Shown piece after piece: positions 24,551 through 39,287 of a stretch of 64,000 nucleotides of DNA (position 1 is its first letter; each line of letters starts with the position of its first letter). The translations under genes were made by a program, and so were the position numbers. Under the pieces are notes generated by a model, which worked only from the letters and a program-made list of their open reading frames with translations, made no database searches and was not told where the DNA came from. The stretch comes from Marasmitruncus massiliensis. Lineage in GTDB: Bacteria; Bacillota; Clostridia; Oscillospirales; Ruminococcaceae. Where the stretch lies: positions 1-64,000 of the forward strand of contig NZ_FYDE01000005.1 of assembly GCF_900186535.1 (NCBI RefSeq), given 5' to 3'.

Positions 24551-24624
24551 AGTCTTTTTCCACTCCTAAAAAATCATTTTTTCTCATAAAGAGCTTCTCT
24601 CCATCGGCTCCTTTTGATGTCCTA

Positions 24625-24653
24625 ATTATAGATGCCCCAACTGGAAAAGTCAA
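24625..24653 (-). promoter_or_regulatory. Sigma-A promoter of the surface-protein operon
   Basis: On the reverse strand TTGACT (24648-24653), a 17-base spacer and a perfect TATAAT (24625-24630). The start codon is about 75 bases downstream. Confidence 0.88.
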
Positions 24654-24657
24654 GCAC

Positions 24658-24677
24658 TTTTGTTACCGTTTTGTAAC
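24658..24677 (-). promoter_or_regulatory. PhoB/OmpR-type direct repeats upstream of the surface-protein promoter
   Basis: TTTTGTTAC (24658-24666) and TTTTGTAAC (24669-24677) on the forward strand are 11 bases apart and end five bases from the -35 box. The spacing and place fit a response-regulator site. The nearby OmpR-type proteins are candidates to bind it. Confidence 0.6.
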
Positions 24678-25016
24678 TATTTTTGTGTAATAGTTCAGAT
24701 ATATGCTTCTAATCAACGCTATATCGCCTTTATTTTTGTCAATATGCATAAACAATGTAAATTAGGTGATCAATTTGTGCTGTTCATATGAATACTTTAT
24801 GAGTGGTTATTTCTGTATTTTCATTTATATTTTTTATTCATGATATATACATAAATCCATCGCATAAAATGAATAATAATTTTATAAATCCTGCATAATT
24901 GTATTGAAAACAGAAAAATAAAAAGGCGGAATTTCCCGCCTTTTTCAGACTAATTTCAGAACATTCGGTTATAGTAGTAGCAAGGCAAAAATCTTTTTCA
25001 TCTTCTCTCCTCAACA
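24678..25016. other. AT-rich gap with one hairpin (24920-24945)
   Basis: No gene is supported. AAAAAGGCGG (24920-24929) pairs with CCGCCTTTTT (24936-24945) and looks like a terminator usable in either direction. The rest is AT-rich with no ribosome site. Confidence 0.5.
24920..24945. terminator. Bidirectional terminator-like hairpin
   Basis: Ten paired bases, AAAAAGGCGG with CCGCCTTTTT, loop AATTTC, and a T-rich flank on each strand. No adjacent gene clearly owns it. Confidence 0.7.
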
Positions 25017-25051
25017 AAAGCGCCGCCGGACATTCCGTCCGACGGCGCTTT
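25017..25051 (-). terminator. Rho-independent terminator of the ROK/ManA operon
   Basis: AAAGCGCCGCCGGAC (25017-25031) pairs with GTCCGACGGCGCTTT (25037-25051), one mismatch, just past the glucokinase stop. A TTTTGTTGAGG tail follows on the reverse strand. Confidence 0.85.
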
Positions 25052-25067
25052 CCTGATTACTAACAGC

Positions 25068-26039
25068 TTATCTGCCCGCCAATTCACTTGTCTGATGGAA
25101 GAGCATTGCGGCTCCGATAATCCCCGCCTGATTTCCCAACGTGCACGCTTCAATACGGGTAACACCTGCGTCACACCCGCCAAATGCCTGGGCATACGCT
25201 TTTTTGCGCAGAGGTTCGAGCAGCGCATCCCCCTCCTTGCTAATGCCGCCTCCCAAGCTAATCATTTCAGGCTGCAAGATATTGATGATATTGGCGACCC
25301 CACAAGCAAGATAATTAATATAGGTCTCCGCCACCTCGCCGGCCGCTGCGTCGCCGCGTCTCATGGCCTCAAAGGCCGTGCGCCCGTCAATTTTGCCGTT
25401 TTCAGCGGCAATCTTGCCCATCAGGCTCTCCGGGCAGCGGCCGATTGCCTCCTTTGTAAAAGCGATCAGCGCAGTGGCTGAGGCATATGCTTCCAGACAA
25501 CCCCGCCGTCCACAGGTACATAAGCGTCCTCCCTGTTCGATCACCATATGCCCGAATTCGGCGGCCCCGTAGCGATGGCCGCTCCAGATCTGCGAATTCA
25601 GCACGACACCCGAACCGACGCCTGTTCCCAAGGTAAGAATGACCGCACTTTGCGCGCCCTTGGCGCTGCCCGCGCAGACCTCGCCCAGCGCCGCTACGTT
25701 TGCATCATTTCCCACCCGTACAGGCCGTTCTGTACGGCTTTGCAGGTAATCCCGCATAGGAAATTGGTGCCAAGCCAGGTTGTTGGAATATTCCACAATT
25801 CCGGACTGGGAGTTGACCGTTCCGGGACAGCCGATACCGATACCGGTTATATCATCCCAGCCTATTTTCGCCTGTTCAAGAGTTGCCGTGCACGCTTTCA
25901 GCATATCGTCGCAGACCTCTTCAGCCGGACGCGGCAACGCGGTCGGGCAATCGGACTGTGCCAGAATTCGGCAAACCTCATCAACGATGCCCGCTTTTAT
26001 ATTGGTTCCTCCGAGATCAATTCCGATATAATACTTCAT
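25068..26039 (-). CDS. glcK: ROK family glucokinase
   Basis: The 323-residue protein opens with the phosphate-binding motif GIDLGGTNIKAGIVDE and has the catalytic Asp in VGNDANVAALGE. The ROK zinc motif CTCGRRGCLE is complete near residue 178, with the zinc His in AAEFGHMVIEQ. These features point to a Gram-positive glucokinase, phosphorylating glucose (or mannose/N-acetyl sugars) with ATP. It is the last gene of a block with ManA, a GmhA-type isomerase, a second ROK protein and a sugar ABC transporter. Gene order suggests the imported sugar is phosphorylated here or by the other kinase. Confidence 0.88.
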   Translation of the reverse strand: MKYYIGIDLGGTNIKAGIVDEVCRILAQSDCPTALPRPAEEVCDDMLKACTATLEQAKIGWDDITGIGIGCPGTVNSQSGIVEYSNNLAWHQFPMRDYLQSRTERPVRVGNDANVAALGEVCAGSAKGAQSAVILTLGTGVGSGVVLNSQIWSGHRYGAAEFGHMVIEQGGRLCTCGRRGCLEAYASATALIAFTKEAIGRCPESLMGKIAAENGKIDGRTAFEAMRRGDAAAGEVAETYINYLACGVANIINILQPEMISLGGGISKEGDALLEPLRKKAYAQAFGGCDAGVTRIEACTLGNQAGIIGAAMLFHQTSELAGR

Positions 26040-26048
26040 AGCTGCCTC

Positions 26049-27008
26049 CTAAAGCGTTGTAAACAGAAATGAGCCCTGCCCTGATAGGGTAACTTCTGAA
26101 AGGCAGCTGGGGATGAACAGATTGCCGCCCTTGAATATCGTTCTTTCAGCCCCGTTATAACAAATCTTTGCGTCTCCATCGGTGCAAAGAATAAAAACAA
26201 AGCTGCCGCCATTCATTTTGCGGGTGTAACTGCCGTCAAGCTCCACTTTCTCCACATTAAAATAATCACACCGGGCCAGCCGCCGGACGTTGTAACCGGC
26301 GGTTCTCTCCAAAACCGCCGCATTTGGCGCGTCCGCGCTCGCAGGTCGCAGATCTGCCGCCTCCAGCGCTTTTTCCAGATGCAGCGCCCGCGGTTTTCCG
26401 TTTACATCCAGACGTCCATAATCATAGACCCGGTAGGTTGTATTGGAGTTCTGCTGGATTTCGGCAAGCAGAATGCCTGCTCCGATTGCGTGAATGGTTC
26501 CCGCGGGAATAAAAAAGACATCCCCCTTTTTCACAGGCATTTTCTGGAGGATTTCGGTGACCGTACCGTCCGAAAGCCTGCACCGCATCTCTTCCTTGGA
26601 AACAATATGCCTGCATCCGAAGTATAAAAATGCGCCGGGCTCCGCGCCGAGGATGTACCACATTTCGGTTTTGCCCAGCCCGTTTTCGTTGCGCCGCGCA
26701 TAAGCGTCATCCGGATGCACCTGAATGGAAAGCGGTTGTTTGGCGTCAATCAATTTAACAAGCACCGGGAATTTTGTATGTATCGAACAGCGGCTGCCAA
26801 GTAATTCTGGAAACTGTTTTACAAACTCTGAAAATTTGGCGCCAGAGTATTCCCCATCCGCGATTATGCTGTCCCCGTCTGGATGCGCAGACAATTCCCA
26901 GCTTTCCGCAATCCGTCCCAGAGCAGTCTGCTTGTGAAACTCCTCTTTTAATTTCGTTCCACCCCAAAGATAGTCCTTAAACGCAGGGGTCAACCGAAAA
27001 GGCAGCAT
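26049..27008 (-). CDS. manA: Type I mannose-6-phosphate isomerase
   Basis: The 319-residue protein carries the zinc ligands of the family: Gln and His in QPLSIQVHPDDAY near residue 100, Glu in LGKTEMWYIL and His in IPAGTIHAIGAG near residue 172. The opening PAFKDYLWGGTKLKEEF is also typical, and the length matches the short bacterial type. It interconverts mannose-6-P and fructose-6-P, feeding glycolysis. It starts 44 bases past the GmhA-type gene stop and ends 9 bases before the glucokinase gene start. This supports catabolism of mannose or a mannose-like epimer. Confidence 0.92.
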   Translation of the reverse strand: MLPFRLTPAFKDYLWGGTKLKEEFHKQTALGRIAESWELSAHPDGDSIIADGEYSGAKFSEFVKQFPELLGSRCSIHTKFPVLVKLIDAKQPLSIQVHPDDAYARRNENGLGKTEMWYILGAEPGAFLYFGCRHIVSKEEMRCRLSDGTVTEILQKMPVKKGDVFFIPAGTIHAIGAGILLAEIQQNSNTTYRVYDYGRLDVNGKPRALHLEKALEAADLRPASADAPNAAVLERTAGYNVRRLARCDYFNVEKVELDGSYTRKMNGGSFVFILCTDGDAKICYNGAERTIFKGGNLFIPSCLSEVTLSGQGSFLFTTL

Positions 27009-27052
27009 GACGTACCCTCCTTGCAGTTACGTTTTATATCTATAAAGCAAAG

Positions 27053-27700
27053 TCAGAATTCAAACAGTTCCGACTCCACATACTCACAGATAAAATGATA
27101 GATCATCAGGTGGTATTCCTGAATCCGGTAGGTTTCTTCCGCCGGAGCAATTACGTAGCAATCCGCAATCTGCACCAGCTTTCCGCCGCTCTTTCCCGAA
27201 AGCGCGGCACATTTTGCCCCTTTTGCCTTTGCCGCCATCAGGGCATACCATACATTTTTTGCATTGCCTGATGTGCTGATTCCCAATACGAAGTCCTCCG
27301 GTTTTGCGTATGCCGCCACCTGCTGGGCATAAATCAAATCCGCGTCCACATCATTTCCGAAAGCGGAGTTCAAGGCCGTGTGCGCGTTCAGGGAAATCGC
27401 GGGCAACCCCCGTTGCAATTTTACTGCAACTTCATGCCCTTCATTCCCAAACAAAGCCCGGAACCGGTCTTTCAAAGAATCTTCCAGCGGCCTTTTTAGC
27501 AAAAACCCCTTCATAAGTTCGCCTACGATATGATCGGAATCCGCGCAGCTGCCCCCATTCCCACAGACGAGAAGCTTGCCGCCGGCAGCATAAGTGTCAA
27601 GCAGTATCCCGCAAAGCATGAAAATGGATTGTTTGATTGGCTGAAGATCCGGATGCTGTTCAAAAAAGCGGCGAACCGCCTGTTCTGTTCTGTTTTTCAT
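27053..27700 (-). CDS. SIS-domain phosphoheptose isomerase-like protein (GmhA family)
   Basis: The start at MKNRTEQAVRRFFEQ follows GGAGAGGAAAAG and gives 215 residues. The GmhA pattern is plain: CGNGGSCADSDHIVGEL near residue 45, GISTSGNAKNVWYAL near 125, and the active-site Gln and His in RIQEYHLMIYHFICEYVE at the C-terminus. Family members make D-glycero-D-manno-heptose-7-P for LPS or S-layer glycans, but close relatives in sugar operons may act on other ketose phosphates. The setting between two ROK kinases and ManA makes a catabolic role more likely here. The substrate is open. Confidence 0.85.
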   Translation of the reverse strand: MKNRTEQAVRRFFEQHPDLQPIKQSIFMLCGILLDTYAAGGKLLVCGNGGSCADSDHIVGELMKGFLLKRPLEDSLKDRFRALFGNEGHEVAVKLQRGLPAISLNAHTALNSAFGNDVDADLIYAQQVAAYAKPEDFVLGISTSGNAKNVWYALMAAKAKGAKCAALSGKSGGKLVQIADCYVIAPAEETYRIQEYHLMIYHFICEYVESELFEF

Positions 27701-27728
27701 TCTTTTCCTCTCCAGATGCAATTTGTCC

Positions 27729-28730
27729 TCATAAAACGCGCTGGAAAAGCGAGCCGGAAATTTCCCGGTCATACCATGCCACCGTCAGCGCGGCAACATC
27801 CCCCACCGATTCCGACAATTGGCTGGGAACCACCTCACAGACGGCTCTGGCCGGTTTGAGCGTCTCACGGAGGATGATTTCCTCCGCCGCCGGCCACAGT
27901 TCCTCATAGCAGCGCGCAAAAATACTGCCGATCACGATTCTTTGGGGATTGAGCAGATCGATCAGAATCGACAGCCCTTTTCCCAACTGGGCGCCTGTCT
28001 GCTTCAAAATTTCTTTCGCCAGTGCATCCCCTGTTTTTGCAGCGAGCCCGATCTTTTCCGCAGTGAGGCTCTCCAGATCAGCAAGGCTTGGGCAGAGCTC
28101 CGGCGTTCTTCCCGCCTGCAATTCCTGCATCACAACCGCCTTCGCGAACTGCGCAATGCCTCCCCCGCTGCAAAACCCCTCGAAAGAGCCCATCTTTCCG
28201 TATCCAACGGGGCCGTAATCGGACAGCCGGATATGCCCGAGTTCCCCCGCCATATCGCTTGCGCCCGTATAAAGCCGGTTGTTCAGAATCAGTCCGGCGC
28301 CCAACCCAGTGCCAAACGTCAGAAAGAGCATGTCCGAACAGCCTTTTCCTGCCCCGAACCGCCATTCCGCAAGCGCGCAGGCATTTGCGTCGTTGCAAAG
28401 CGTCGTTTTCCATCCGGTCTGTTTCTCGAAATAATCCGTAACCGCGACATAGTTCCAGCCCGGCAGGTTTGGCGGAGAAAGAATGACCCCCGCCCTGCTG
28501 TCCAGCGGCCCTCCGCAGCTGATCCCTATTCGCTCCACCATTTTACCCGCATCCGGAAGCTGTTTCAGGGAAAGCAGGTCCCCGCACAGCGCGTCCAGCA
28601 TTTCCGCGGGGGCATAGTCTTTGGTTTTTCTGGGAGGGCATCGGTGCAAGATCCGATACTCTTCGCCTGACACCTCACCAATACATACGGCACATTTTGT
28701 TCCGCCAATATCAATTCCGGCTGCCAGCAT
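27729..28730 (-). CDS. ROK family sugar kinase lacking the zinc-binding motif
   Basis: The 333-residue protein has the ROK ATP motif AAGIDIGGTKCAVCIGEV, the catalytic Asp in LCNDANACALAEWRFG, the GTGLGAGLILN phosphate loop and a His in AGELGHIRLSD. The usual CxCGxxGCxE zinc motif is absent; the aligned stretch reads YGKMGSFEGFCSGGGIA. No helix-turn-helix is present, so it is a kinase rather than a NagC-type repressor. It follows the ABC transporter genes after a hairpin, and probably phosphorylates the imported sugar. It differs clearly from the glucokinase encoded at 25068. Confidence 0.82.
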   Translation of the reverse strand: MLAAGIDIGGTKCAVCIGEVSGEEYRILHRCPPRKTKDYAPAEMLDALCGDLLSLKQLPDAGKMVERIGISCGGPLDSRAGVILSPPNLPGWNYVAVTDYFEKQTGWKTTLCNDANACALAEWRFGAGKGCSDMLFLTFGTGLGAGLILNNRLYTGASDMAGELGHIRLSDYGPVGYGKMGSFEGFCSGGGIAQFAKAVVMQELQAGRTPELCPSLADLESLTAEKIGLAAKTGDALAKEILKQTGAQLGKGLSILIDLLNPQRIVIGSIFARCYEELWPAAEEIILRETLKPARAVCEVVPSQLSESVGDVAALTVAWYDREISGSLFQRVL

Positions 28731-28770
28731 ACAGTTTTCTCCTTATCACTGATGGTGTTCAGATTTGATA

Positions 28771-28805
28771 AAAGGTGGTTCCTACTCCACGTAGAAACCA
28801 CCTTT
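28771..28805 (-). terminator. Hairpin terminator/attenuator after the sugar-binding protein gene
   Basis: Arms AAAGGTGGTT and AACCACCTTT with a 15-base loop, 20 bases past the binding-protein stop and 40 before the kinase start. It probably sets lower expression for the kinase/isomerase genes than for the transporter. Confidence 0.7.
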
Positions 28806-28825
28806 GCGTGTTGAAAGCAAAAAGA

Positions 28826-29839
28826 TCAGAGGGCATCCTTATTGATGACAGATACGCCTGTATCAATATTCTTCTCGCCTGTGTCTTCGCCCGAAAGCGC
28901 CTTCACAGCTGTTTTCATGCCTTCATAACCCATGACATCCGGGTTTTGCGCCATCGTGCAGAGCAGGTAGCCGTTTTTGATCAGATTGAGGATTGTATCG
29001 GATTTATCAAAACCAACGCCGACCACCGTTCCGCCGGCTTCCTGAATCGCATTGCCCGCACCGACAGTGGAACCTTCGTTGGCGCCAAAAACGCCGACAC
29101 AGCCCTGTGTAATATAGTTCGCCGCGATATCCTTGGACTTTGCCGCGTCGCCTTCGCCGTACTGTGTTTCCAGAATTTCAAATTTACTGCCTTCAAAAGC
29201 GGCGCGGAAGCCTTCCTCACGCGCAACGGTGGAAGCAGTCGCCGCGTTGACGTTCACGATACCGATTTTCCCCTCGGTGATGCCGGCGGCTTCCAGCGCT
29301 TTGATCATTTCCTTACCCGCGGTTGTGCCTGCCGCTTTGTTATCGGTTGCCAGTGTCTGGATTGCCGGGAAATCGGCGGCGGAGTCAACATAAATAATCT
29401 TCACGCCCGCGTCCTCGGCCTCTTTCAGCGCGGCCGTCACAGCGTCCGGACCGTTCGCCGCTAAAAGAATAGCGTTTGCGCCGCCCGCTATCGCATTGTT
29501 GATGCATTCAATCTGCTTCACATCGTCTTTCACATCAGGAGCCAGCCAGGTATAATTCACATTGTAGTTCACATTGGCAAGCTCAGAGACTGCCTTTTTG
29601 CATCCGGCATCCACATTGACCCAATGCTGGTCCATCTGATCCATGGTGATCAGATAAACATTATAGGATTCAGCGGCAAACGTGGAAGATGCGGATTCCT
29701 CGGGGCTTTGCGCCGCTGAGGATGCTTCGGACGGCTGTGCGGCGGAAGAAGCCGCGGGCGCGGGGGTGCTGCCGCAGCCCGCCATTAAACCAAGCGTTAA
29801 AACGAGACCCAGTAAAGCCGAGACCAGTTTGCGTTTCAT
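28826..29839 (-). CDS. Sugar ABC transporter substrate-binding lipoprotein (RbsB-type)
   Basis: The 337-residue protein has a lipoprotein signal ending LMAGC, a Ser/Ala/Glu-rich linker, and a Peripla_BP_4 type periplasmic-binding domain with AIAGGANAILLAANGPDAV and NEGSTVGAGNAIQEAGG. It resembles ribose/allose/galactose-binding proteins. The ligand cannot be named. It is the third gene of the importer operon (ATPase, permease, binding protein), and its product may also serve the sensor system encoded at 34130-36790. Confidence 0.9.
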   Translation of the reverse strand: MKRKLVSALLGLVLTLGLMAGCGSTPAPAASSAAQPSEASSAAQSPEESASSTFAAESYNVYLITMDQMDQHWVNVDAGCKKAVSELANVNYNVNYTWLAPDVKDDVKQIECINNAIAGGANAILLAANGPDAVTAALKEAEDAGVKIIYVDSAADFPAIQTLATDNKAAGTTAGKEMIKALEAAGITEGKIGIVNVNAATASTVAREEGFRAAFEGSKFEILETQYGEGDAAKSKDIAANYITQGCVGVFGANEGSTVGAGNAIQEAGGTVVGVGFDKSDTILNLIKNGYLLCTMAQNPDVMGYEGMKTAVKALSGEDTGEKNIDTGVSVINKDAL

Positions 29840-29871
29840 TTCAATTCCTCCTAATTAATTATCATCAAAGC

Positions 29872-30903
29872 TTACGCTTTAACTTCCATGTTTAAAAGGG
29901 CTTTCTTTTTCTTTTTTCTGGGTTTTCCGGTCCTGACGATGACGTCCAGCAGCACGGAGATGACAACGATTACGCCGATTACGATATTCCGGATGGCAAC
30001 CGGCGCGCCCGCAAACTGCAGGCCATTTTGCAATACGCCCCAGATGGATGCGCCTACAACGGTGCCGATCAGAATGCCCTGCCCGCCGAGCGTGCTGACG
30101 CCGCCGATTACAGATGCGGCAACCGCATACATTTCATAGGTGTTGCCCGCGTCCATGGTCCCCATCCCGCTGGTCGCACAGATGATCAGCCCCACCACAC
30201 AGGAGCAGATCGCACTGACGATATACGCGTTCGTTGTAGTGGATACGATGTTGATGCCGGACAGCCTTGACGCCTCCACATTGCTTCCGATTGCATAGAT
30301 ATGGCGGCCGGTTCTGGTTTTGCTCAGAAGGAAATCGAAGATCAGCCACAGGATTGCCGCAATCCAGATCGTATTAAAGACACCCAGCACCTTTCCGTAA
30401 TAGAAAAAGTCCCGGAATCCCTGTGCCGCGTCCCCGATCGAGTCGGTATTATAGTTGTTGTTGACAATCTGGGCGATTCCCCGGGCAATGGTCATCGTGC
30501 CCAGCGTCGCAATAAAAGGGGGAAGCTTACAGTTTGCCACCAGCTGCCCATTGATGATCCCCACCAAGACGCAGCAGACCAGTGTAATAAGCACCGCGAC
30601 CCACGGGTTCACGCCTTTTGTCATCAGCGTTGCGGAAATCATACAGCTCATGCCCACAACGGAACCGATGGAAAGGTCGATGTTCCCGGTTATCAGCACA
30701 TAGGACTGCCCGATGCCGATCAGCAAAATCGGCGCGATCTGGCGCAGCAGGTTTGCCACGTTTTTATCCGAAAAAAATGTGGGGTTCAAAATACCAAAGA
30801 CGATGCACAGAATGATAAGGCCGACCGTAACCGTAATAACCTGCCCCATGCCTCTGGCGGCAATCAGTCTTTTCAAAGGGTTCTGACGATAGTTCTGTTT
30901 CAT
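29872..30903 (-). CDS. Sugar ABC transporter permease (RbsC-type)
   Basis: I choose the ATG of MKQNYRQNPLKRLIAARG (343 residues) behind GGGAG; an in-frame TTG fifteen bases upstream is less likely. The protein has about eight to ten transmembrane segments and the BPD_transp_2 pattern, including IGIGQSYVLITGNIDLSIGS near residue 62 and RTGRHIYAIGSNVEASRLSG near residue 207, typical of RbsC/XylH permeases. It lies between the ATPase and binding-protein genes. Confidence 0.9.
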   Translation of the reverse strand: MKQNYRQNPLKRLIAARGMGQVITVTVGLIILCIVFGILNPTFFSDKNVANLLRQIAPILLIGIGQSYVLITGNIDLSIGSVVGMSCMISATLMTKGVNPWVAVLITLVCCVLVGIINGQLVANCKLPPFIATLGTMTIARGIAQIVNNNYNTDSIGDAAQGFRDFFYYGKVLGVFNTIWIAAILWLIFDFLLSKTRTGRHIYAIGSNVEASRLSGINIVSTTTNAYIVSAICSCVVGLIICATSGMGTMDAGNTYEMYAVAASVIGGVSTLGGQGILIGTVVGASIWGVLQNGLQFAGAPVAIRNIVIGVIVVISVLLDVIVRTGKPRKKKKKALLNMEVKA

Positions 30904-30933
30904 ATTCAACTCTCCCAAGGCAATTTTTATTCT

Positions 30934-32460
30934 TCAGAGACTGGCCGCCGGGTTCAGTTTCTGATCGAATTTGGTGGCACACTCCAGAATGCGGTTTTGG
31001 GTTGCCTCTTCAGCCATAAATTCGCCGGTAATCCTGCCGTCACACATAACAAGTATCCGGTCACTGATTCCCATGATCTCCGGCATTTCGGAAGAAACAA
31101 AAAACACGCCGATTCCGCTCTGCTTCAAACGGTTCATCAGATTGTAGATTTCCACCTTGGCGGCAACATCGATCCCGCGCGTCGGCTCGTCGAACATCAC
31201 GACACGGGAATTGCGCGCCAGCCACTTGCCCACAACCACCTTCTGCTGGTTGCCGCCGGACAGGCTCCCCGCGTCTACTTCCGCGTTGGGCAGCCGGATG
31301 GTAAGCTCTTCTACCGTCTGATCCACCATTGCCGTTTCCTTTGCGCGGTTCACAACGCCCGCGCGTCCGCACAGAATGTCCAGATTGGGCAGCGCAATAT
31401 TTTCGCGGATGCTCAGCTTCGTGCACAGGCCGTCTTTTTTCCGGTCCTCCGGTACAAGAACCAGCCCGTTTTTAATTGCATCCATGGGCTTCTGGATGGA
31501 AATGCTTTTTCCGTCCAGAATGATCTCCCCGCTTTCTTTTGGGTCGACGCCAAAAACCGCCCTTGTCATTTCGGTTCTTCCCGCGCCCATCAATCCTGCT
31601 ATGCCGACAATTTCACCCTCATGCAATTCAAAGTTGATATTTCTGACCAGTTTCCCGGCATTGAGATTTTTTACCTCCAGTATTTTTCTCCCGCGCCTGC
31701 TCTCCACTTTCGGGAATTTTTCTTTAATTTCCCGGCCAACCATGTTGGAGATGATCTCCTGCATCGAGGTATCCGCAAAGTCCATGCTGGTCACATACCT
31801 GCCGTCGCGCATGATTGTAACGCGGTCGACAATATGCTGCAGTTCTTCCAGCCGGTGAGAAATATAAACAATTCCGCAGCCTTCCTCCCTCAGTTTGCGT
31901 ATGATCGCAAACAGATCGTCAATTTCTTTCGAAGTCAGCGCTGAGGTGGGTTCATCCATGATCAGGATTCTGGCATTTGTGGAGAGGGCCTTGGCAATCT
32001 CCACCATCTGCTGTTTTGAAACAGCAAGGTCGCCGACGATGATCTCCGGCGAAATTGCGATATTCAGCCGGTCAAGAATCTTTTGTGCCTGGCTGTTCAT
32101 TTCCTTGTTAGAGAGCACACCCGAACGTGTCATTTCACGCCCTAAAAAGATATTTTCCGCGACGGAAAGGTGCGCGCACATATTCAGTTCCTGATGAATG
32201 ATCGCAACCCCCAACTCCTGCGCCTTTTTGGGGGTCAGATCGGTTACAGTTTCCCCAAAAATCGAAATGTCGCCGCTATCCCGTGTATAGACCCCGCTGA
32301 GCACCTTCATCAGCGTCGATTTTCCCGCCCCGTTTTCCCCAAGCAGTGCCATGACTTCGCCGGCTTTTAAGTTGAACGAAACATCGTCCAAAGCTTTGAC
32401 GCCGGGAAATGATTTCTGAATATGTTCCATCTCAACGATATATTCGAGCATTCCGTTCAC
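30934..32460 (-). CDS. Sugar ABC transporter ATP-binding protein, two domains (RbsA/MglA-type)
   Basis: The 508-residue protein has two ABC cassettes. The first has an intact Walker A GENGAGKSTLMKVL, Walker B ILIMDEPTSAL and H-loop VYISHRLEEL. The second has the usual relaxed Walker A GLMGAGRTEMTRAVFG, the signature LSGGNQQKVVVGKWLA and FDEPTRGIDV. This is the standard RbsA pattern with one strong and one modified site. The start is GTG 32460 or ATG 32451; neither ribosome site is clearly better. It is the first gene of the importer operon. Compare it with the degenerate relative encoded at 32681. Confidence 0.92.
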   Translation of the reverse strand: MNGMLEYIVEMEHIQKSFPGVKALDDVSFNLKAGEVMALLGENGAGKSTLMKVLSGVYTRDSGDISIFGETVTDLTPKKAQELGVAIIHQELNMCAHLSVAENIFLGREMTRSGVLSNKEMNSQAQKILDRLNIAISPEIIVGDLAVSKQQMVEIAKALSTNARILIMDEPTSALTSKEIDDLFAIIRKLREEGCGIVYISHRLEELQHIVDRVTIMRDGRYVTSMDFADTSMQEIISNMVGREIKEKFPKVESRRGRKILEVKNLNAGKLVRNINFELHEGEIVGIAGLMGAGRTEMTRAVFGVDPKESGEIILDGKSISIQKPMDAIKNGLVLVPEDRKKDGLCTKLSIRENIALPNLDILCGRAGVVNRAKETAMVDQTVEELTIRLPNAEVDAGSLSGGNQQKVVVGKWLARNSRVVMFDEPTRGIDVAAKVEIYNLMNRLKQSGIGVFFVSSEMPEIMGISDRILVMCDGRITGEFMAEEATQNRILECATKFDQKLNPAASL

Positions 32461-32505
32461 CCATCTTCATCATTTGCTACGCATCGATTACAGTTTTCAG
32501 TATAG

Positions 32506-32522
32506 CATTGGCGTCCCCAATG
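32506..32522. promoter_or_regulatory. Inverted repeat in the promoter region of the sugar importer operon
   Basis: CATTGG (32506-32511) and CCAATG (32517-32522) flank CGTCC. On the reverse strand the repeat sits between a weak TTACCC and a TATACT that are 17 bases apart. It could be an operator but is short. Confidence 0.4.
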
Positions 32523-32633
32523 GGTAAGGGGGCAGGATTTGTACTTACAGGGGGTTTTTTTAGAACTTTTTATATCGTTCGTATATTATGCAATGAAAAT
32601 GTTTATTGATTTTATTGCTTATGCCTAATTACA

Positions 32634-32666
32634 TAAAAAAAGGCCGCCCTGTCTGAGGACAGCCTT
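32634..32666 (-). terminator. Terminator of the two-component/dead-ABC operon
   Basis: On the reverse strand GGCTGTC and GACAG pair around CTCA, with outer GGCC/GGCC pairing and a TTTTTTT tail. It lies just past the stop of the gene ending at 32681. Confidence 0.75.
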
Positions 32667-32680
32667 TTGGCCTATACATT

Positions 32681-34129
32681 TTACTGATTCGTCCTAAAAA
32701 AGTGAAATTCTTCACTGTGATATTCCCTGCAAAGCCGGCCGTTTTCAATGACCATCAGCCGGTCGGCCACCACAAGGGAATCCGAAATACTGACCGCCAG
32801 AATCACCACGGCAATCTTTCTTTCCCGAAGCCGGTTGATCAGCCCGATCAGATGGTGCCGCAGGTACATGTCCGCTCCGGAAAAAGGCTGGACACACAAA
32901 ACCACCTTGGGATGATAAAGATGCACTTTATAATAGACCAGGTTATATAGGGAAAACGGGGTCAGCTTCGTAATATCGTCCGCGTAAATATCTGTTCCGA
33001 TCAGCGGTTCATATTCCTGTGCGACACTTTTGCGGATGCTCGGATTTGTCCATAAAAAGGGGCGCTTTTGATCCAGCAGGAAGCAAAGGTTGTCCAGGTA
33101 ACTCATTTCCTGAAATAGCATGGCCCGAATGGGGTTTTCCTCGATAAAGCAGAGTTCCTTTTTCAGGCGGGAACCATTTTCCTTCCAGTCAGACCCATCC
33201 AGCAGGATTTTGCCGGAAAGCGGCAGCATTTCGTTGTTCATCAGGCGCAGGATATCTCCCAGCGCCGTGTTGTTCATATCGAGAAAGACGACACACTCGC
33301 CTTTTTCGACGGTAAAACTTATGTCTTTTATCGTTTCGGTAAAAACATGCTCGAATTTCAAAATCCCGTTTTTTCCGGATTTATGGATTGCAGGAGAATC
33401 GATCCGACTGAAGTCCAGGGTGTAATGGCTGATAATCTCGTCGTGAAAATTCGTTTGGTCCAGGACTTTCCGGACCTTCCCGTTCTCCATCAAAGAGACG
33501 TGGTCACAGATTTTAAACGCTTCCTCGTGATGGTTGCAGATATACAAAAAGGACAGACCCTGCGCGGCATAGTGCCGCAGAAGGTCATGAATGATTTTTA
33601 AATCCGAAGCGCTGATAAAGTTGCTGATATCGCGGATCACAATCAGCTTTGCGCCGGTCACGACCGCTTTGAGCAGTTCCACCACACACTTTTCAAAAAA
33701 CGACAGATTGGCTACCAGCTCATTCGCGTCGATATGGACATTCAGCTCTTCCGTGAACCGGGCAAGCTGCTCCTCGAGAATTCCCGGATGGATCAGATAT
33801 TGTTTGAACCCCCTGCGCAGGACAAAAATGTTGTCCGCGACCGTCAAGTCCTCAACGAGGCGGCTGCGCTGTTCGATGACGGAAACCCTGTTCACGCTCA
33901 TGGAGCTGTGCTCATAATTGTTGACAAGATTCCCCTGAAAATAAACGTAGCCATAATGGATGGGGACATTCTGGCAAAGCAGGCGAATCAGGGCCTCCTG
34001 CCCCTGCGCGTTGATACATACGAGCCCCATGATTTCGCCCTGAAAAATGTGAAGGTTCAGCTGGTCAAGAAGAGTCACCCCGTCGGCGATCTGGGTAACG
34101 CGCTCCAATCGAATGATCTCGTTTTTCAT
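32681..34129 (-). CDS. Degenerate RbsA-like double ABC protein, predicted catalytically dead, in a two-component operon
   Basis: This 482-residue protein aligns over its full length with two-cassette sugar ATPases such as the 30934 protein, but the active-site motifs are lost. Walker A of domain 1 reads CINAQGQEALIRLL, without the Lys-Ser pair. Walker B reads LIVIRDISNF, without the catalytic Glu. The signature reads LSFFEKCVVELLKAV and the H-loop has Asn for His. Domain 2 is equally degenerate (FLDMNNTALGDILRLM). The start codon abuts the stop of the YesM-type kinase, so it is coupled to the two-component system. It probably couples the transporter to the sensor instead of driving transport. 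Confidence 0.75.
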   Translation of the reverse strand: MKNEIIRLERVTQIADGVTLLDQLNLHIFQGEIMGLVCINAQGQEALIRLLCQNVPIHYGYVYFQGNLVNNYEHSSMSVNRVSVIEQRSRLVEDLTVADNIFVLRRGFKQYLIHPGILEEQLARFTEELNVHIDANELVANLSFFEKCVVELLKAVVTGAKLIVIRDISNFISASDLKIIHDLLRHYAAQGLSFLYICNHHEEAFKICDHVSLMENGKVRKVLDQTNFHDEIISHYTLDFSRIDSPAIHKSGKNGILKFEHVFTETIKDISFTVEKGECVVFLDMNNTALGDILRLMNNEMLPLSGKILLDGSDWKENGSRLKKELCFIEENPIRAMLFQEMSYLDNLCFLLDQKRPFLWTNPSIRKSVAQEYEPLIGTDIYADDITKLTPFSLYNLVYYKVHLYHPKVVLCVQPFSGADMYLRHHLIGLINRLRERKIAVVILAVSISDSLVVADRLMVIENGRLCREYHSEEFHFFRTNQ

Positions 34130-35158
34130 TCAGACCCTCTTTTCCTCCCCCGCAATCAGGGGCAGCGTGATTTCAACATCCGTCCCCACATTGACGGTAC
34201 TGTACAAAACGATGCCGTATTGTTCCCCGAACAGCAGCTTAATCCGGTTATTGACGTTGATGATCGCAATGCCGCCCTTCTTTTCGCCGTCCGGATTTAC
34301 ATATTCAAGGGACTGGATATTGAGCTTTTCATTCAGCTCCCGCAGCCTGCTTTCCTCCATGCCCATCCCGTCATCCGAAACCGTAATAATCAGGCGTTTA
34401 GGCGTGGTCTCAATCTTAATGCGGATATTACCCCGCCCGATTTTTCGCTCAATCCCATGAAAAATCGAATTCTCTACAATCGGCTGCAGCGTGAGCTTGG
34501 GCATCCGGTATTTTAATATCTCTTCGCGATCCTCACAGTCGTATACAATGCTCAGGTTCAGTCGTTCCCCGAAACGGTACTGCTGAATAATGTAATAGTT
34601 TTCGATATTGGTCAGCTCGTCCTCCAGCGTAACCAGGTTTTCGACGTTGGAAATCGTATAGCGGAAAAACGTCGCCAGAGCCTCCGTCATTTCCGCGACA
34701 TTGTCCAGCCCTGCCGCGATCGCCTCGCCGCGGATTCCCTCCAGCGTATTGTATAAAAAATGCGGATTGATCTGGTTTTGCAGCGCAAGGTACTGCGCCT
34801 GCTTTCTGGTTGCGCTGATCAGCTCGTTGGTATTCAGGTGGGCTTTCAGCTTTTTCAATGTATTTTCCATTTTAGGGCTGAAAGGATAGCGCAGCTCATA
34901 GATTCCCTGCAGCGTATATCCGCTCGCAAAAAGCTGGAGCACCTTCTCCGTCTCCTGATAAGGCAGCCAGACCCAACGGTATCCGAAATACAGAAGCCCG
35001 GCCAGACACAAAAAGCCAAACAGCAGCAACACGATGTAGTCCTTAGATGAAACAGCTATCAAGAGTAATGCCAAAAGTAAAAGACAGATATAAGTAAACA
35101 GCAGCAACAAAAAGAGGGACACTCGCCGGGAAAGAAATCGGCTTTGGTATCTTTTCAT
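34130..35158 (-). CDS. YesM/LytS-type sensor histidine kinase without an extracellular sensor domain
   Basis: The 342-residue protein has two adjacent membrane segments (about 13-35 and 41-60) with almost nothing outside, then a cytoplasmic region with the His_kinase motif LQNQINPHFLYNTLEGI near residue 127, LTLQPIVENSIFHGIE near residue 221 and VSDDGMGM, GGIAIINVNNRI as the HATPase boxes. YesM relatives usually carry a large extracellular domain, so the input must come from the membrane or from partners. It is translated after the AraC-type regulator gene and directly before the degenerate ABC gene, whose product is a candidate partner. Confidence 0.88.
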   Translation of the reverse strand: MKRYQSRFLSRRVSLFLLLLFTYICLLLLALLLIAVSSKDYIVLLLFGFLCLAGLLYFGYRWVWLPYQETEKVLQLFASGYTLQGIYELRYPFSPKMENTLKKLKAHLNTNELISATRKQAQYLALQNQINPHFLYNTLEGIRGEAIAAGLDNVAEMTEALATFFRYTISNVENLVTLEDELTNIENYYIIQQYRFGERLNLSIVYDCEDREEILKYRMPKLTLQPIVENSIFHGIERKIGRGNIRIKIETTPKRLIITVSDDGMGMEESRLRELNEKLNIQSLEYVNPDGEKKGGIAIINVNNRIKLLFGEQYGIVLYSTVNVGTDVEITLPLIAGEEKRV

Positions 35159-35173
35159 AACATTCGTTCCGTT

Positions 35174-36790
35174 CTACGAATATAGCTTCCGAAACTCATT
35201 CGGTTTCAGGCCTGTAAATTTCTTAAAGCCCTGCGTGAAATGCTTGATATCGCTGTAACCGACCTGTTCACAGATGCTGGCAACGCTCAGGTTGGTTTCT
35301 TTAAACAACTCTTTCGCCTTGTTCATGCGCACCTCAGACAGATATTCCATAAAGTTCTGCCCGCTCTCCTTTTTAAAAAGCACGCTGAAATAGGAGGCGT
35401 TGAAGCCGGCGACGCCGCTCACTTCCTCAAGGCTGATCTGCTTGCTGTAATTTTGCTGGATGTACTGTTTTGCCAACCGAATCGGTTTCTTTTCCGCCTG
35501 CTTTTTGTCCTGAATAACGGTTCCCATGGATTCCTGAATAAAATTCAGCAGGCAGCCAAACAACTGCGGCACAGAGGAACAAAGGTCGGCGCGGCTGATA
35601 AATTTTTCGTGGAGGGTTTCTTCCCTCTCGTCCGAAAACTGATGGTTTTTCAGCAGTATCAGGTAGTTGAGGCAGGCGCTTGTGACAAGTTGGAAAACCT
35701 CCTGCCCTGAAATCTGAGGAATCTGCTGAATCTGCTTTTTCAGCGAATCCACCGCGGACGCCGCAGCATTAATGTCCAGAATTTCAAGCGCCGCTTCGAT
35801 CTCCTTATTAAACTCCGCGAGCGGGGCACCGCCGACAGGCGGGCAAGCAGGTATTCCAGCCGTTTCGATCATCTTGCCGGTCCCTTCCACCAAACGCTGC
35901 GACACTGCCCATTCGGCAGCTTTCAGGGAATCTTCAAGCTGATTCAGATTCTCCACAGCTAACCCCAGGCCGATTGTAAGTTCCACCTTTCCAAAAACAC
36001 TGTTTTGGACCAGCAATTCATCCATCACTGCTCTTAGCTGCCGCCTGAGCGTTTCTTTTGCGTCTTTACCATAATTTAAGATACAATAGGCCCTGCTTTC
36101 CTGAAAGCTGATTTCCAGATCAAAGCATTTTGCTTTCAGCAGTCCCTGCAAGATCTGCTTCATCTTATCTTCCAGAATCTTCATGCCGCTTTCATAGAGA
36201 ATTCCATATTCGCAGTCGATTTTCACAAGAAAGACCTGAAAATAGCCGGGCTCAAAATGAAAGTGGTATTCATGGTTGAGCTTTTCCATTTGAAGACCAT
36301 TTGAATTTCCGCCTCGCTGCAAAAGCAGGTTGGTCATCAGATTTGACCGCAGTCTGCTGATATCGCTTTGCAAGCGGATTTTGAGGCGTTCCTCCGCGGA
36401 AAGCTGCTGGGTCCGCTGTCTGTATTTTTCGCGCATCCTATGGAGTGTGTCCAGCAGCGCATCCTTCTTGATCGGTTTGAGCAAATAATCGCATACCCCA
36501 TATTTGATCGCACTTTGGGCATATTCGAAGTGACGATAGCCGCTTACAATAATAAAGTCAATATCCTCTTTGATCTTCTTTCCGCGTCCGATCATCTCCA
36601 GGCCGTCATATCCCGGCATGCGTATATCGGTGATCATCAGGTCAGGACGCAGAGTTTCAATCATTTCCAGTGCTTCAATCCCGTTATGCGCAACGCCGAC
36701 AATTTCCATCTCCAAAGATGCCCAATCAACAAGCCCGGAAATTAATTGGCATACCTTGGCCTCATCATCTGCTATCACAACTTTCATCAT
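35174..36790 (-). CDS. YesN-type response regulator with AraC DNA-binding domain
   Basis: The start ATG of MMKVVIADDEAKV follows GGAG nine bases away and gives 538 residues. The receiver is intact, with DD in VIADDEAKV, the phospho-acceptor Asp in LMITDIRMPGYDG near residue 55 and the Lys in YLLKPIKKDALL near residue 105. A long central region of about 280 residues follows, then two AraC helix-turn-helix motifs at the C-terminus (ISLEEVSGVAGFNASYFSVL and SVASICEQVGYSDIKHFTQG). It is the first gene of the operon and presumably controls the sugar importer downstream. Confidence 0.9.
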   Translation of the reverse strand: MMKVVIADDEAKVCQLISGLVDWASLEMEIVGVAHNGIEALEMIETLRPDLMITDIRMPGYDGLEMIGRGKKIKEDIDFIIVSGYRHFEYAQSAIKYGVCDYLLKPIKKDALLDTLHRMREKYRQRTQQLSAEERLKIRLQSDISRLRSNLMTNLLLQRGGNSNGLQMEKLNHEYHFHFEPGYFQVFLVKIDCEYGILYESGMKILEDKMKQILQGLLKAKCFDLEISFQESRAYCILNYGKDAKETLRRQLRAVMDELLVQNSVFGKVELTIGLGLAVENLNQLEDSLKAAEWAVSQRLVEGTGKMIETAGIPACPPVGGAPLAEFNKEIEAALEILDINAAASAVDSLKKQIQQIPQISGQEVFQLVTSACLNYLILLKNHQFSDEREETLHEKFISRADLCSSVPQLFGCLLNFIQESMGTVIQDKKQAEKKPIRLAKQYIQQNYSKQISLEEVSGVAGFNASYFSVLFKKESGQNFMEYLSEVRMNKAKELFKETNLSVASICEQVGYSDIKHFTQGFKKFTGLKPNEFRKLYS

Positions 36791-37026
36791 TGCAACATTC
36801 TCCATCTTCTCGAACTTCGGCAGGATAACGCCGCAGCCGCATACTGCCGAAACAAAGTAAAATTTGATTGTCTATTTATATAAGACTCTGAAATTATATT
36901 ATATTGTTGATTTGGGAATGTCAACCAAAACATACTATAATATGTCAATTGTTTTTATTCTTTTTGATAATTTAATGGAAGCTGCACGGGAGAAACACAA
37001 GCAGAAGAAGTGATGAAAGCTACCAG
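36791..37026 (-). other. AT-rich upstream region of the two-component operon
   Basis: This stretch presumably holds the promoter of the two-component operon. No convincing -35/-10 pair or repeat was found by eye. Confidence 0.3.
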
Positions 37027-37060
37027 AAAGGGCCCTGTCCGAAATCGAACAGGGCCCTTT
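37027..37060 (-). terminator. Rho-independent terminator of the pentapeptide gene
   Basis: AAAGGGCCCTGT (37027-37038) pairs perfectly with ACAGGGCCCTTT (37049-37060), eight bases past the gene's stop. Confidence 0.85.
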
Positions 37061-37068
37061 TACATTTT

Positions 37069-37713
37069 TTATTTTATAATCAAACCTAATAATTTTGCTA
37101 ATTCGGAAGCCTGAACGCTATTGACAATTGCTCCTTTTAATTCCTCGCCGGACACAAGGATTCCCTCTATTCGGCTTTTTGTAAAGTCAATATCCTTCAA
37201 TAGCGTTTTAAAAAAATTGGTGCTGATCAGTTTGACACCGTCCAGTTCCAAATTAGATAGCTTGCATTCCGTCACACTTGCATGGCTGATATCACTGTTC
37301 ACGACGCTTACATTTTTTATTTTGGCGGAATCCGTATTTGCATATTGAAAATTGCAATCCGAGACTGTAAGATTTTGTAAACTCGCGTACTGCAAGTTGA
37401 CGCCCACCCCTTTGCAGGATACAAGCTCGCACCTGTTAAAATACCCTTCATCCATATCACTATTGGAAAAATCACAGGATCTCATCGTGACGTCAATAAA
37501 ATCAGTCTTTGAAAAGGAACAGGTTATGAACCTGCAATTTTCAAAAGCAACTTCCTTAAAACACAATTTTGACAGGTCGGCATTTTCAAATGATACATCT
37601 TTTATTAATTTCGCGGCAATATCGGTTTCATCCATTTGGGATGCGCGGATAAATTGCAGCGGATCCTCTACAGGTTCTAATTCTTTTACGATGTTCGGTT
37701 TCAAGATTTTCAT
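37069..37713 (-). CDS. Pentapeptide repeat protein
   Basis: The start at MKILKPNIVKELEPVED has a textbook AGGAGAACAAA leader and gives 214 residues; longer versions lack a good ribosome site. From about residue 40 to 190 the protein shows repeated five-residue units of the A/C-[DN]-[LF]-x-x type, such as FENADLSKLCFKEVAFENCR and FSKTDFIDVTMRSCDFSNSD, which fold as a right-handed beta helix. Members include quinolone-resistance Qnr-like and many unknown proteins; nothing marks this one as gyrase-protecting. It stands alone, closed by its own terminator. Confidence 0.85.
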   Translation of the reverse strand: MKILKPNIVKELEPVEDPLQFIRASQMDETDIAAKLIKDVSFENADLSKLCFKEVAFENCRFITCSFSKTDFIDVTMRSCDFSNSDMDEGYFNRCELVSCKGVGVNLQYASLQNLTVSDCNFQYANTDSAKIKNVSVVNSDISHASVTECKLSNLELDGVKLISTNFFKTLLKDIDFTKSRIEGILVSGEELKGAIVNSVQASELAKLLGLIIK

Positions 37714-37903
37714 TTTGTTCTCCTGTGATGCCATGCTTTTTACGGCGGTTTTCTTCATCTGCAGCCGTCCCTCCATGCCGGTGACTGTAATCACGCGGCA
37801 CGAGAACATACTTTCTCTTCAGCATTATATACCTCTCTGAACGTGTAAACAAGTCCTTTCATAAATTTTAAAAGATCAAGTGCACTCACTTGGATATTTT
37901 ATG

Positions 37904-37949
37904 ATAAAGAATTACCGGGCAGCATAAATGCTGCCCGGTAATTCTTTAT
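37904..37949 (-). terminator. Perfect 21-bp hairpin terminating the first TRAP operon
   Basis: The arms are perfect over 21 bases around the loop TAAA; the core is ACCGGGCAGCA with TGCTGCCCGGT. It lies 31 bases past the DctM stop, with T-rich flanks. Confidence 0.9.
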
Positions 37950-37979
37950 AATGATTCCGTAAGAGATACATACTTTTTC

Positions 37980-39287
37980 TTATGCCCCGTAAATCAGATT
38001 GGGCACAACCAGACTGAGCGCCGGAAAAACGGTAATGAGAATCAAAACGACAAACAGCGCAAGCATAAATGCCCAGCACTCGCGCAGGAAGTCACTGATT
38101 TTACAATTCGTGATGCCGCAGGTAGTAAACATCATCGAACCAAACGGCGGGGTCAGACCGCCAAGCATGATATTAACGATACAGATCATGCCGAAGTGAA
38201 CCGGATCGACACCCATTGAAGTGACGACGGGAACCAGCAGAGGCGCAATGATCATCAGAGCAGCTCCGCCCTCGAGGAACATGCCCATAATGAGCAGGAT
38301 CACGTTGCAGAGCAGCAGCATGACGTAAACATTTGTTGTGAGTGAGGTTAGTGCGCGGGTAACCATCTGCGGAATGCCCTGCCAGGTAAGGTAATAGCCA
38401 AACACGCTGGCGGATACCATAATCATCACAACCGAAGCACTGCCGGAGATTGTCTCTTTCATAATGGGGATAAAATGTTCGCGGAAACTCAGCTTTTTAT
38501 ATATAAACTTACCGATTACAATTGTATACAGCACAGCTACAGCGCCGCCTTCTGACGGTGTGAACAAACCGATACGCATGCCAAGGATGATTGCGAACGG
38601 GAATGCCAGCCCCCAGAAAGAGATCAGCGCCTGCCTGCCAATTTCACCGATACTTGCACGTTTCGTGCGGGATGGCTGATAATTACGCTTTTTGGATATA
38701 ATGGCTACCGCAATCATCAAAGACAAACTCATCAGGATGCCGGGCACATAGCCTGCCGCAAACACGCGGCCCAAAGAACAGCTTGCCAACAGGGCATACA
38801 CAATCAAATTGACTCCCGGCGGGATAACCGGCGTCGCGGCGGACGATGCCGCGGTGATTGCAGCAGAAAACGCCCTCGAGTAACCGCGCTCCTCCATCTG
38901 CGGAACCAGCATCTTGCTCTGCATAGCGGCATCAGCGTTTGCGGAGCCGGAGCAGCCGCCCATCAGCATGCTCAGCAGAACATTGACCTGGGCCAGTCCG
39001 CCGCGCATGTGGCCGGTAAGCACTTCGGCGAACTCCATCATCTTTTCACTGATGCCGGAGTAATTCATGATGGAACCTGCCATAACAAAAAATGGAATTG
39101 CCAGCAGGGAGAACGATTGCGAACTTGTCAGCACCTTTTGCAGGATGAGATCCATCGGCGAAGTGGTGTCGATAAACATAAAATAGAAGAAGGTGGAACC
39201 CAGCAGCGAATAGACAATAGGGACGCCTGCAAAATACAGGACAAACACCAGCACAATGGGCAGATAAACAATAAAACCGGACATCAC
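37980..39287 (-). CDS. TRAP transporter large permease (DctM-type)
   Basis: The 435-residue protein has about twelve hydrophobic segments and the DctM signatures MLMGGCSGSANADAAMQSKM and AITAASSAATPVIPPGVNL. The family imports carboxylates or sugar acids with a sodium gradient. It overlaps the small permease gene by four bases. The substrate is unknown, since no catabolic genes are in this operon. Confidence 0.92.
   Translation of the reverse strand: MMSGFIVYLPIVLVFVLYFAGVPIVYSLLGSTFFYFMFIDTTSPMDLILQKVLTSSQSFSLLAIPFFVMAGSIMNYSGISEKMMEFAEVLTGHMRGGLAQVNVLLSMLMGGCSGSANADAAMQSKMLVPQMEERGYSRAFSAAITAASSAATPVIPPGVNLIVYALLASCSLGRVFAAGYVPGILMSLSLMIAVAIISKKRNYQPSRTKRASIGEIGRQALISFWGLAFPFAIILGMRIGLFTPSEGGAVAVLYTIVIGKFIYKKLSFREHFIPIMKETISGSASVVMIMVSASVFGYYLTWQGIPQMVTRALTSLTTNVYVMLLLCNVILLIMGMFLEGGAALMIIAPLLVPVVTSMGVDPVHFGMICIVNIMLGGLTPPFGSMMFTTCGITNCKISDFLRECWAFMLALFVVLILITVFPALSLVVPNLIYGA

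Follow-up and report, generated by a model that had tools for sequence, protein, structure and literature searches.

The DNA analysed here, called the window below, is the whole 64,000-nucleotide stretch at positions 1 to 64,000 (forward strand) of contig NZ_FYDE01000005.1 from Marasmitruncus massiliensis, assembly GCF_900186535.1. Its minus strand carries a two-component system of the YesN/YesM type, a complete RbsA-RbsC-RbsB sugar importer of the ATP-binding cassette (ABC) class, and between them a catalytically dead relative of the importer's own two-cassette ATPase. We call this relative pABC; what it does beside a kinase and a pump is the subject of this report. The features of the locus are as follows, from upstream to downstream.

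35174..36805, minus strand: YesN-type response regulator, 543 residues, receiver plus AraC-type DNA-binding domain (open reading frame, Pfam)
34130..35158, minus strand: YesM-type histidine kinase, 342 residues, PF06580 plus HATPase_c, two predicted membrane helices (open reading frame, Pfam, hydropathy)
32681..34129, minus strand: pABC, catalytically dead two-cassette RbsA-like protein, 482 residues (open reading frame, RbsA model alignment, motif alignment)
33803..33862, minus strand: pABC residues 90-109 (RLVEDLTVADNIFVLRRGFK), the segment after the first Q-loop, holding the second most conserved 15-residue stretch of the family
33065..33127, minus strand: pABC residues 335-355, its counterpart in cassette 2, holding the third most conserved stretch
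32638..32668, minus strand: intrinsic-terminator-like hairpin 3' of pABC (consensus match only)
32497..32555, minus strand: operator-like direct repeat upstream of rbsA, two C-rich boxes 22 nucleotides apart, then a -10 box, TATACT
30934..32460, minus strand: RbsA, intact sugar ABC ATPase of the cognate clade (RbsA model, motifs, tree)
29872..30918, minus strand: RbsC permease, BPD_transp_2 (family and Pfam models)
28826..29839, minus strand: RbsB sugar-binding protein, Peripla_BP_4, with a lipoprotein signal seen by eye (family and Pfam models)

An earlier note, made from the sequence of this stretch, had described a 482-residue protein aligning lengthwise with two-cassette sugar ATPases, its ATG abutting the stop of a YesM-type kinase, with a complete Rbs operon downstream on the same strand. 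All of this stands. The RbsA model covers residues 4-474 of pABC (E 1e-41, 143 bits, where the curated cut-off is 745 bits and the neighbouring RbsA scores 608 bits), the pABC start is the codon next to the kinase stop, and the RbsA-RbsC-RbsB operon, downstream of pABC on the strand of the sensor trio, is intact. A full-length two-cassette RbsA match is found in all 43 alignment rows (P0001 and 42 relatives). The AlphaFold model of pABC (mean predicted local distance difference test score 88.1, predicted template modelling score 0.79) is a tandem ABC fold by Foldseek, the 50 matches listed being general ABC folds; a search with the window RbsA gave no PDB sequence at E <= 1e-40 that could serve as a template for the docking surface. 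Pfam recognises 42 of 43 members, by its general ABC_tran model alone. No dedicated family was found in Pfam or NCBIfam, and the best NCBIfam models for the window protein are those of transporter ATPases, whose cut-offs it misses by far.

Motif losses were counted in 42 complete copies of pABC (the window's and 41 others, leaving out L059, L078, L079 and L081) and in 38 genuine rows of cognate RbsA; one further row of the RbsA alignment and tree, A_L051, is spurious, there being no RbsA at L051, and was dropped from later conservation analysis. The first Walker A of the window copy reads CINAQGQEA, with QEA at the place of GK[ST], and RD stands at the DE place of Walker B. The motif loss that the earlier note had read in cassette 1 extends through the family for GK[ST] and the H-loop His, kept in none of the 42 copies. 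It is less complete for single residues: Lys still occupies the aligned Walker A place in 14, the catalytic Glu place holds Glu in 5 (and the Walker B Asp survives in 1), and a His one place beyond the H-loop position is invariant. All 38 genuine RbsA rows keep GK[ST], DE and the H-loop His in this cassette. Cassette 2 had been called equally degenerate. The second cassette of cognate RbsA is itself off consensus, however: in 38 of 38 rows its Walker A carries Arg and its H-loop position Ser. Of the losses in cassette 2, those of LSGGNQQ and of the DE pair are therefore the only ones special to pABC.

A first search, of 197 genomes at family level, found two clear orthologs besides the window's (53% and 43% identity), each with a four-base overlap between the kinase and pABC genes. 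A wide scan of 84,980 species, using a three-row alignment as query, gave 181 relatives, and loci were drawn for the best 80; because the scan relied on two short peptide patterns, it undercounts. Among the best 80 are 35 ordinary RbsA proteins (20-26% identity) and 45 pABC proteins (L038-L082, 33-70% identity) from Clostridia and Spirochaetes, with Anaerotruncus, Caproiciproducens, Tepidanaerobacter, Diplocloster, Pygmaiobacter, Proteiniclasticum, Sphaerochaeta and Treponema among the genera. These 45 relatives with conserved neighbours exclude the possibility, raised in the earlier note, of a rare decayed copy uncoupled from kinases. The kinase gene lies directly upstream of pABC in 42 of 45 loci by rule and in L059 by eye, the exceptions being L051, where pABC stands alone, and L079, which is cut by the contig end. 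The gap between the two genes runs from -50 to +15 nucleotides, with a mode of -4 (15 of the 41 loci with an intact junction). A regulator gene is present in 41 of 45 loci, and rbsA accompanies the pABC genes in 38 (downstream in 30, upstream in 8, absent from 7), giving the order regulator-kinase-pABC-RbsA-RbsC-RbsB or the same with its two halves swapped. No such kinase or regulator scores above 60 bits in the DNA examined around any of the 35 ordinary RbsA loci.

Four of the seven loci without RbsA (L051, L069, L070 and L079) have RbsC on another contig; at L079 this says nothing about linkage, as one contig starts with pABC and the other, with RbsC, breaks off within RbsB. Another, L078, is a short contig and was left out of the RbsC check. 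For the last two, L080 and L081, no RbsC was matched at E 1e-60, and both of these genomes have a broken kinase or pABC gene: the kinase of L080 is a fragment with a stop, and kinase and pABC are both broken in L081. (At 9002-11412 of L081 the kinase reading frame runs into pABC and then meets a frame break, either a decaying copy or an assembly fault.) Across the family pABC is internally unbroken in 43 of 45 loci, 41 of them complete and 2 cut by contig ends; L059 and L081 are the broken ones.

In the main tree a single branch with support 100 sets pABC apart, and a smaller tree repeats this at 100/100; cognate RbsA also forms one clade (support 99). The ratio of nonsynonymous to synonymous substitution rates (dN/dS) of pABC is 0.06-0.23 in eight of nine close pairs, the ninth being saturated. 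This is similar to the kinase and the regulator, while RbsA, RbsC and RbsB have lower values in most pairs. Judged by these rates, pABC is under purifying selection. Conservation was scored per segment (Jensen-Shannon) in the RbsA and pABC alignments. The ATP motifs score highest in RbsA, at 0.74-0.79 (mean 0.67); in pABC both Walker A motifs, both Q-loops and the second signature reach only 0.48-0.54 (mean 0.52), and the two segments following the Q-loops score above all of these, at 0.66 and 0.61. We take these segments to be the ones that face the permease in live importers, going by importers of the maltose type. Conservation in pABC peaks at residues 194-208, which include an invariant His; Asp284, Arg424 and Asp450 are likewise invariant, and specific to pABC.

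The distribution of pABC follows one kind of permease. At the level of the order (394 genomes), pABC at no fewer than 347 bits and close RbsC relatives (E <= 1e-75) occur in the same four genomes; ten genomes gave pABC matches at E <= 1e-45, and those other than the four, at 172 bits or less, were not counted. At the level of the class (391 genomes), pABC is present in 13 genomes (at least 379 bits), and G589 has a fragment of it at a contig end, next to kinase and regulator; close RbsC relatives are present in 14; with 14 genomes each, 13 are shared (Fisher p 3e-22). Six class matches at 222-235 bits were not counted as pABC, and the three of them inspected (G637, G789 and G707) have RbsA as their best match. 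The kinase ortholog (at least 309 bits) occurs in 9 of 206 class genomes, every one a pABC genome, and five further class genomes hold nine weaker kinase matches and no pABC. The one class genome with the RbsC that lacks pABC, G833, has RbsACB with neither a pABC match nor a kinase of the pABC-linked type; its kinase matches are two frames of 583 and 587 residues at 37-38% identity. A ROK-family gene abuts rbsA in G833 (L168 1551-2753) and is possibly a swapped regulator. As judged from gene content, these comparisons show regulator, kinase and pABC to be co-inherited with one clade of RbsA plus RbsC and RbsB.

The kinase has almost no extracellular domain, as the earlier note had said: hydropathy predicts two membrane helices in the window protein with about 6 residues between them. 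Among 43 kinase relatives the same method finds two helices 2-15 residues apart in 39, which is all 39 that can be scored; a single helix is called in L059 and L074, and the kinases of L058 and L080 are truncated. YesM kinases usually have a large outside sensor domain, a trait that the window kinase lacks. The other PF06580 kinases of the same genome have loops of 145-264 residues in five of six cases, and the sixth has five predicted helices.

The regulator's probable target lies in front of rbsA. A direct repeat of C-rich boxes, 19-22 nucleotides apart in 20 training sites and 22 in the window, precedes the gene, and in most Clostridia with the element a -10 box lies 27 nucleotides after the start of CCCCTT, in both gene orders. 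Regions were scored with a position matrix that left out the tested region's own site, against 300 resampled controls; the cut of 12 was chosen after the scores had been seen, and the 20 training sites were drawn from the same loci and share descent. On these terms the element is present in 34 of 47 rbsA-upstream regions (score above 12 and above all 300 controls). The elements of L061 and L071 beat all controls and score below 12, and the L049 site falls just outside the tested region. The element is present in L202, where regulator, kinase and pABC lie on another contig, and in L179, where pABC does; it was not found upstream of rbsA in G833. The window genome (3.76 Mb) holds one perfect match, and a reversed control gives none. 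Two matches with one mismatch both lie inside coding frames of the window, at 26501-26528 and at 29895-29922 (within RbsC). From its position and distribution, the direct repeat is likely to be the site of the YesN-type regulator. Six spirochaete loci (L072, L073, L075, L076, L077 and L082) have no CCCC operator and carry similarly placed boxes like CCACCTTTTC or CTACCTTTTTC, perhaps a diverged form of it. A home-made scan finds terminator-like hairpins in 9 of 31 intervals between pABC and rbsA, that of the window included, where the hairpin is perhaps the end of the sensor transcription unit.

The best explanation for the six genes is one dedicated sensing and uptake module, in which pABC probably tells the cell whether one particular pump has found its sugar. 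On balance we think it probable that RbsB, RbsC and pABC form a transporter-like sugar receptor controlling the kinase, which turns on rbsACB. This reading draws on the linkage, the purifying selection, the co-occurrence with RbsC, the conserved permease-facing segments, the kinase without an outside domain and the operator before rbsA. Since pABC keeps the shape of RbsA and its permease-facing segments, it could dock on the RbsC dimer in the manner of RbsA, without driving transport. Sugar-loaded RbsB would then shift the conformation of RbsC; with ATP hydrolysis presumably lost from pABC, the complex would be a receptor and not a pump. The kinase has no outside domain with which to sense sugar itself; pABC would relay the shift to its cytoplasmic portion. 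The kinase would phosphorylate the YesN-type regulator, which would bind the direct repeat by the -10 box and switch on rbsACB, so that live RbsA is made and the sugar imported. This last step is the best supported, and the three before it are put forward with less assurance. The module and its target are well supported, and docking and signalling are what we infer from them. The same division applies to the earlier note's proposal that the pseudo-ATPase binds RbsC or the kinase and reports transporter or ligand status to the regulator: linkage, selection, segments, kinase and operator all fit it, and binding and signalling are the conjectural part.

Several observations weigh against the receptor reading. 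The former H-loops of pABC (0.74 and 0.63), its second Walker B region with the D-loop (0.65) and its first signature (0.61) have changed residues and are conserved to much the same degree as the permease-facing segments (0.66 and 0.61), or more; they may equally form a new site. The first Walker B region (0.59) is likewise conserved with changed residues. Structural demands could by themselves explain why the permease-facing segments are conserved. With Lys at the Walker A place in a third of copies (14/42), residual nucleotide binding is possible. The operator-like element was not found in the six spirochaete loci, nor in L170, L173 and L175, the last of which (G662) is one of only three testable genomes with an unlinked sensor gene. 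In G892 pABC lies alone, away from regulator, kinase and RbsACB, which stand together; this copy is intact, kept although unlinked. Faulty assembly may lie behind individual absences and breaks, since many of the genomes are metagenome-assembled or drafts.

A first rival is a pABC that works on the kinase alone, as a cytoplasmic PhoU-like clamp or scaffold; the transporter signal would then come from the kinase touching RbsC or RbsA directly, or pABC would bind a cytoplasmic ligand such as a phosphosugar or nucleotide. The kinase is the closest and most constant neighbour of pABC, their dN/dS values and that of the regulator are alike where RbsA, RbsC and RbsB are lower in most pairs, and residues 194-208 with their invariant His, together with Asp284, Arg424 and Asp450, suggest a new site. 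We nevertheless regard this as unlikely, for it leaves the conserved permease-facing segments of both cassettes and the co-occurrence with RbsC unexplained. The retained RbsA shape and permease-facing segments would also suit an anti-ATPase that competes with RbsA for RbsC and throttles uptake, its link to the kinase being mere co-expression, for which the tight coupling to the kinase gene can be cited. Yet pABC is missing where the sensor pair is missing (G833), and a kinase without an outside domain would be left with no input, which makes throttling quite improbable. Least credible of all is a decaying RbsA duplicate carried along by linkage. The ATP motifs are indeed gone and pABC evolves faster than RbsA, but the low dN/dS, the reading frames without internal break in 43 of 45 loci, the lineage-specific invariant residues and the spread across Clostridia and Spirochaetes are not those of a decaying gene; selection and survey together lead us to reject decay for the family as a whole.

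RbsA-like proteins beside YesM/YesN pairs are not confined to the pABC clade. All nine weaker kinase matches were inspected, a sample thus chosen by kinase similarity, and five of these loci have an RbsA-like neighbour outside that clade, ranging from nearly intact to fully dead:

L224, 8667-10154: fully degenerate
L226, 4663-6153: fully degenerate, in the order regulator-kinase-ABC
L227, 2800-4470: half degenerate
L225, 2450-3943: more motifs kept, kinase with about 104 outside residues
L228, 10684-12210: more motifs kept, kinase with about 133 outside residues

The kinases of L224, L226 and L227, from the genomes G637, G710 and G721, have short loops (7-15 residues). The kinases of L230, L231 and L232 have no RbsA-like neighbour, and L229 was rejected as a triplet, since its ABC protein sits between binding-protein-like and permease-like genes and is probably a transporter ATPase. 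A single origin for the RbsA-like proteins linked to two-component systems was also considered. Six proteins taken as such, plus pABC, do stand apart from 26 transport RbsA rows (99/98), with long branches meeting there; the same split without the deadest members has support of only 62/73, and in the kinase tree the wider-class kinases fall near the pABC kinases (89/76) with one control inside, so that neither tree bears out a common origin. Tentatively, and with less confidence than the receptor itself, we suggest that pABC may be a dead copy of an importer ATPase turned into a fixed signalling subunit, making a sugar receptor of permease and binding protein. The wider class may then show such proteins at various points on the way from live enzyme to pseudo-enzyme, the ATP motifs disappearing as the kinase's outside domain does.

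The surroundings of the module offer some hints. RbsB is followed, at 25068-28730 of the window, by a SIS-domain gene, two genes of the ROK family and one that by eye resembles phosphomannose isomerase. ROK-family genes occur near 17 of 55 loci and SIS-domain genes near 12 of 55, by a greedy choice of reading frames with known faults; their recurrence may be a hint at the sugar. In the PDB, RbsB comes closest to entries deposited as binding proteins of the ribose type. A pentapeptide-repeat gene (37069-37809) precedes the regulator gene on the minus strand, with a GC-rich hairpin between them seen by eye (37020-37809 region). Rfam gives no match at gathering scores within 24000-38000.

These results counsel caution in annotation: genes annotated as sugar-transport ATPases beside two-component systems may be regulators. 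The promoter element offers a means of tracing the regulon, and a pABC freed from transport would allow its signalling role to be studied without disturbing uptake. We found no account of such a pseudo-ATPase in the open-access literature searched, most subscription papers lying outside it.

Known systems provide the closest parallels. Bce kinases, which are intramembrane-sensing, have almost no outside domain. In Bce modules (BceAB-BceRS) the ABC transporter is the real sensor, and the regulator turns on the transporter genes (PMC10314905, PMC6978683). The present locus likewise encodes a kinase with a minimal outside loop together with an ABC transporter; unlike Bce, its permease is RbsC-like (BPD_transp_2) and there is no BceB-type permease, and where in Bce the live transporter itself contacts the kinase and handles peptide antibiotics, here a CUT2-type sugar importer is joined by a separate dead ATPase. 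PhoU, of the PstSCAB-PhoU-PhoR system, is not an ABC protein. That system combines a kinase without an outside sensor domain, an ABC importer as sensor and a separate go-between (PMC5775613, PMC6978683). The go-between here differs in being a dead relative of the importer's own ATPase, matching ABC_tran alone in Pfam and without a PhoU fold. XylFII-LytS controls xylose import. In this system (PMC6321045) and in CuaD-CuaSR (PMC10384115), both of Clostridia, a two-component system takes its input from a third component of ABC-importer origin. There an outside sugar-binding protein binds the outside domain of the kinase, whereas here the kinase lacks such a domain and the added component, a pseudo-ATPase, is cytoplasmic. 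With RbsA and other CUT2 double-cassette ATPases pABC shares its fold and a relationship over its full length; it differs in that its ATP motifs are gone and that a live RbsA is encoded within the same block of genes. The receptor model that we favour would resemble Bce and Pst-PhoU-PhoR, and a dead pump-ATPase relative as relay appears in none of the systems compared, so far as the sources used describe them. Some kinases without an outside domain are already known to listen to ABC transporters; at this locus a separate part, a pseudo-ATPase freed from transport, seems to have evolved for the purpose.

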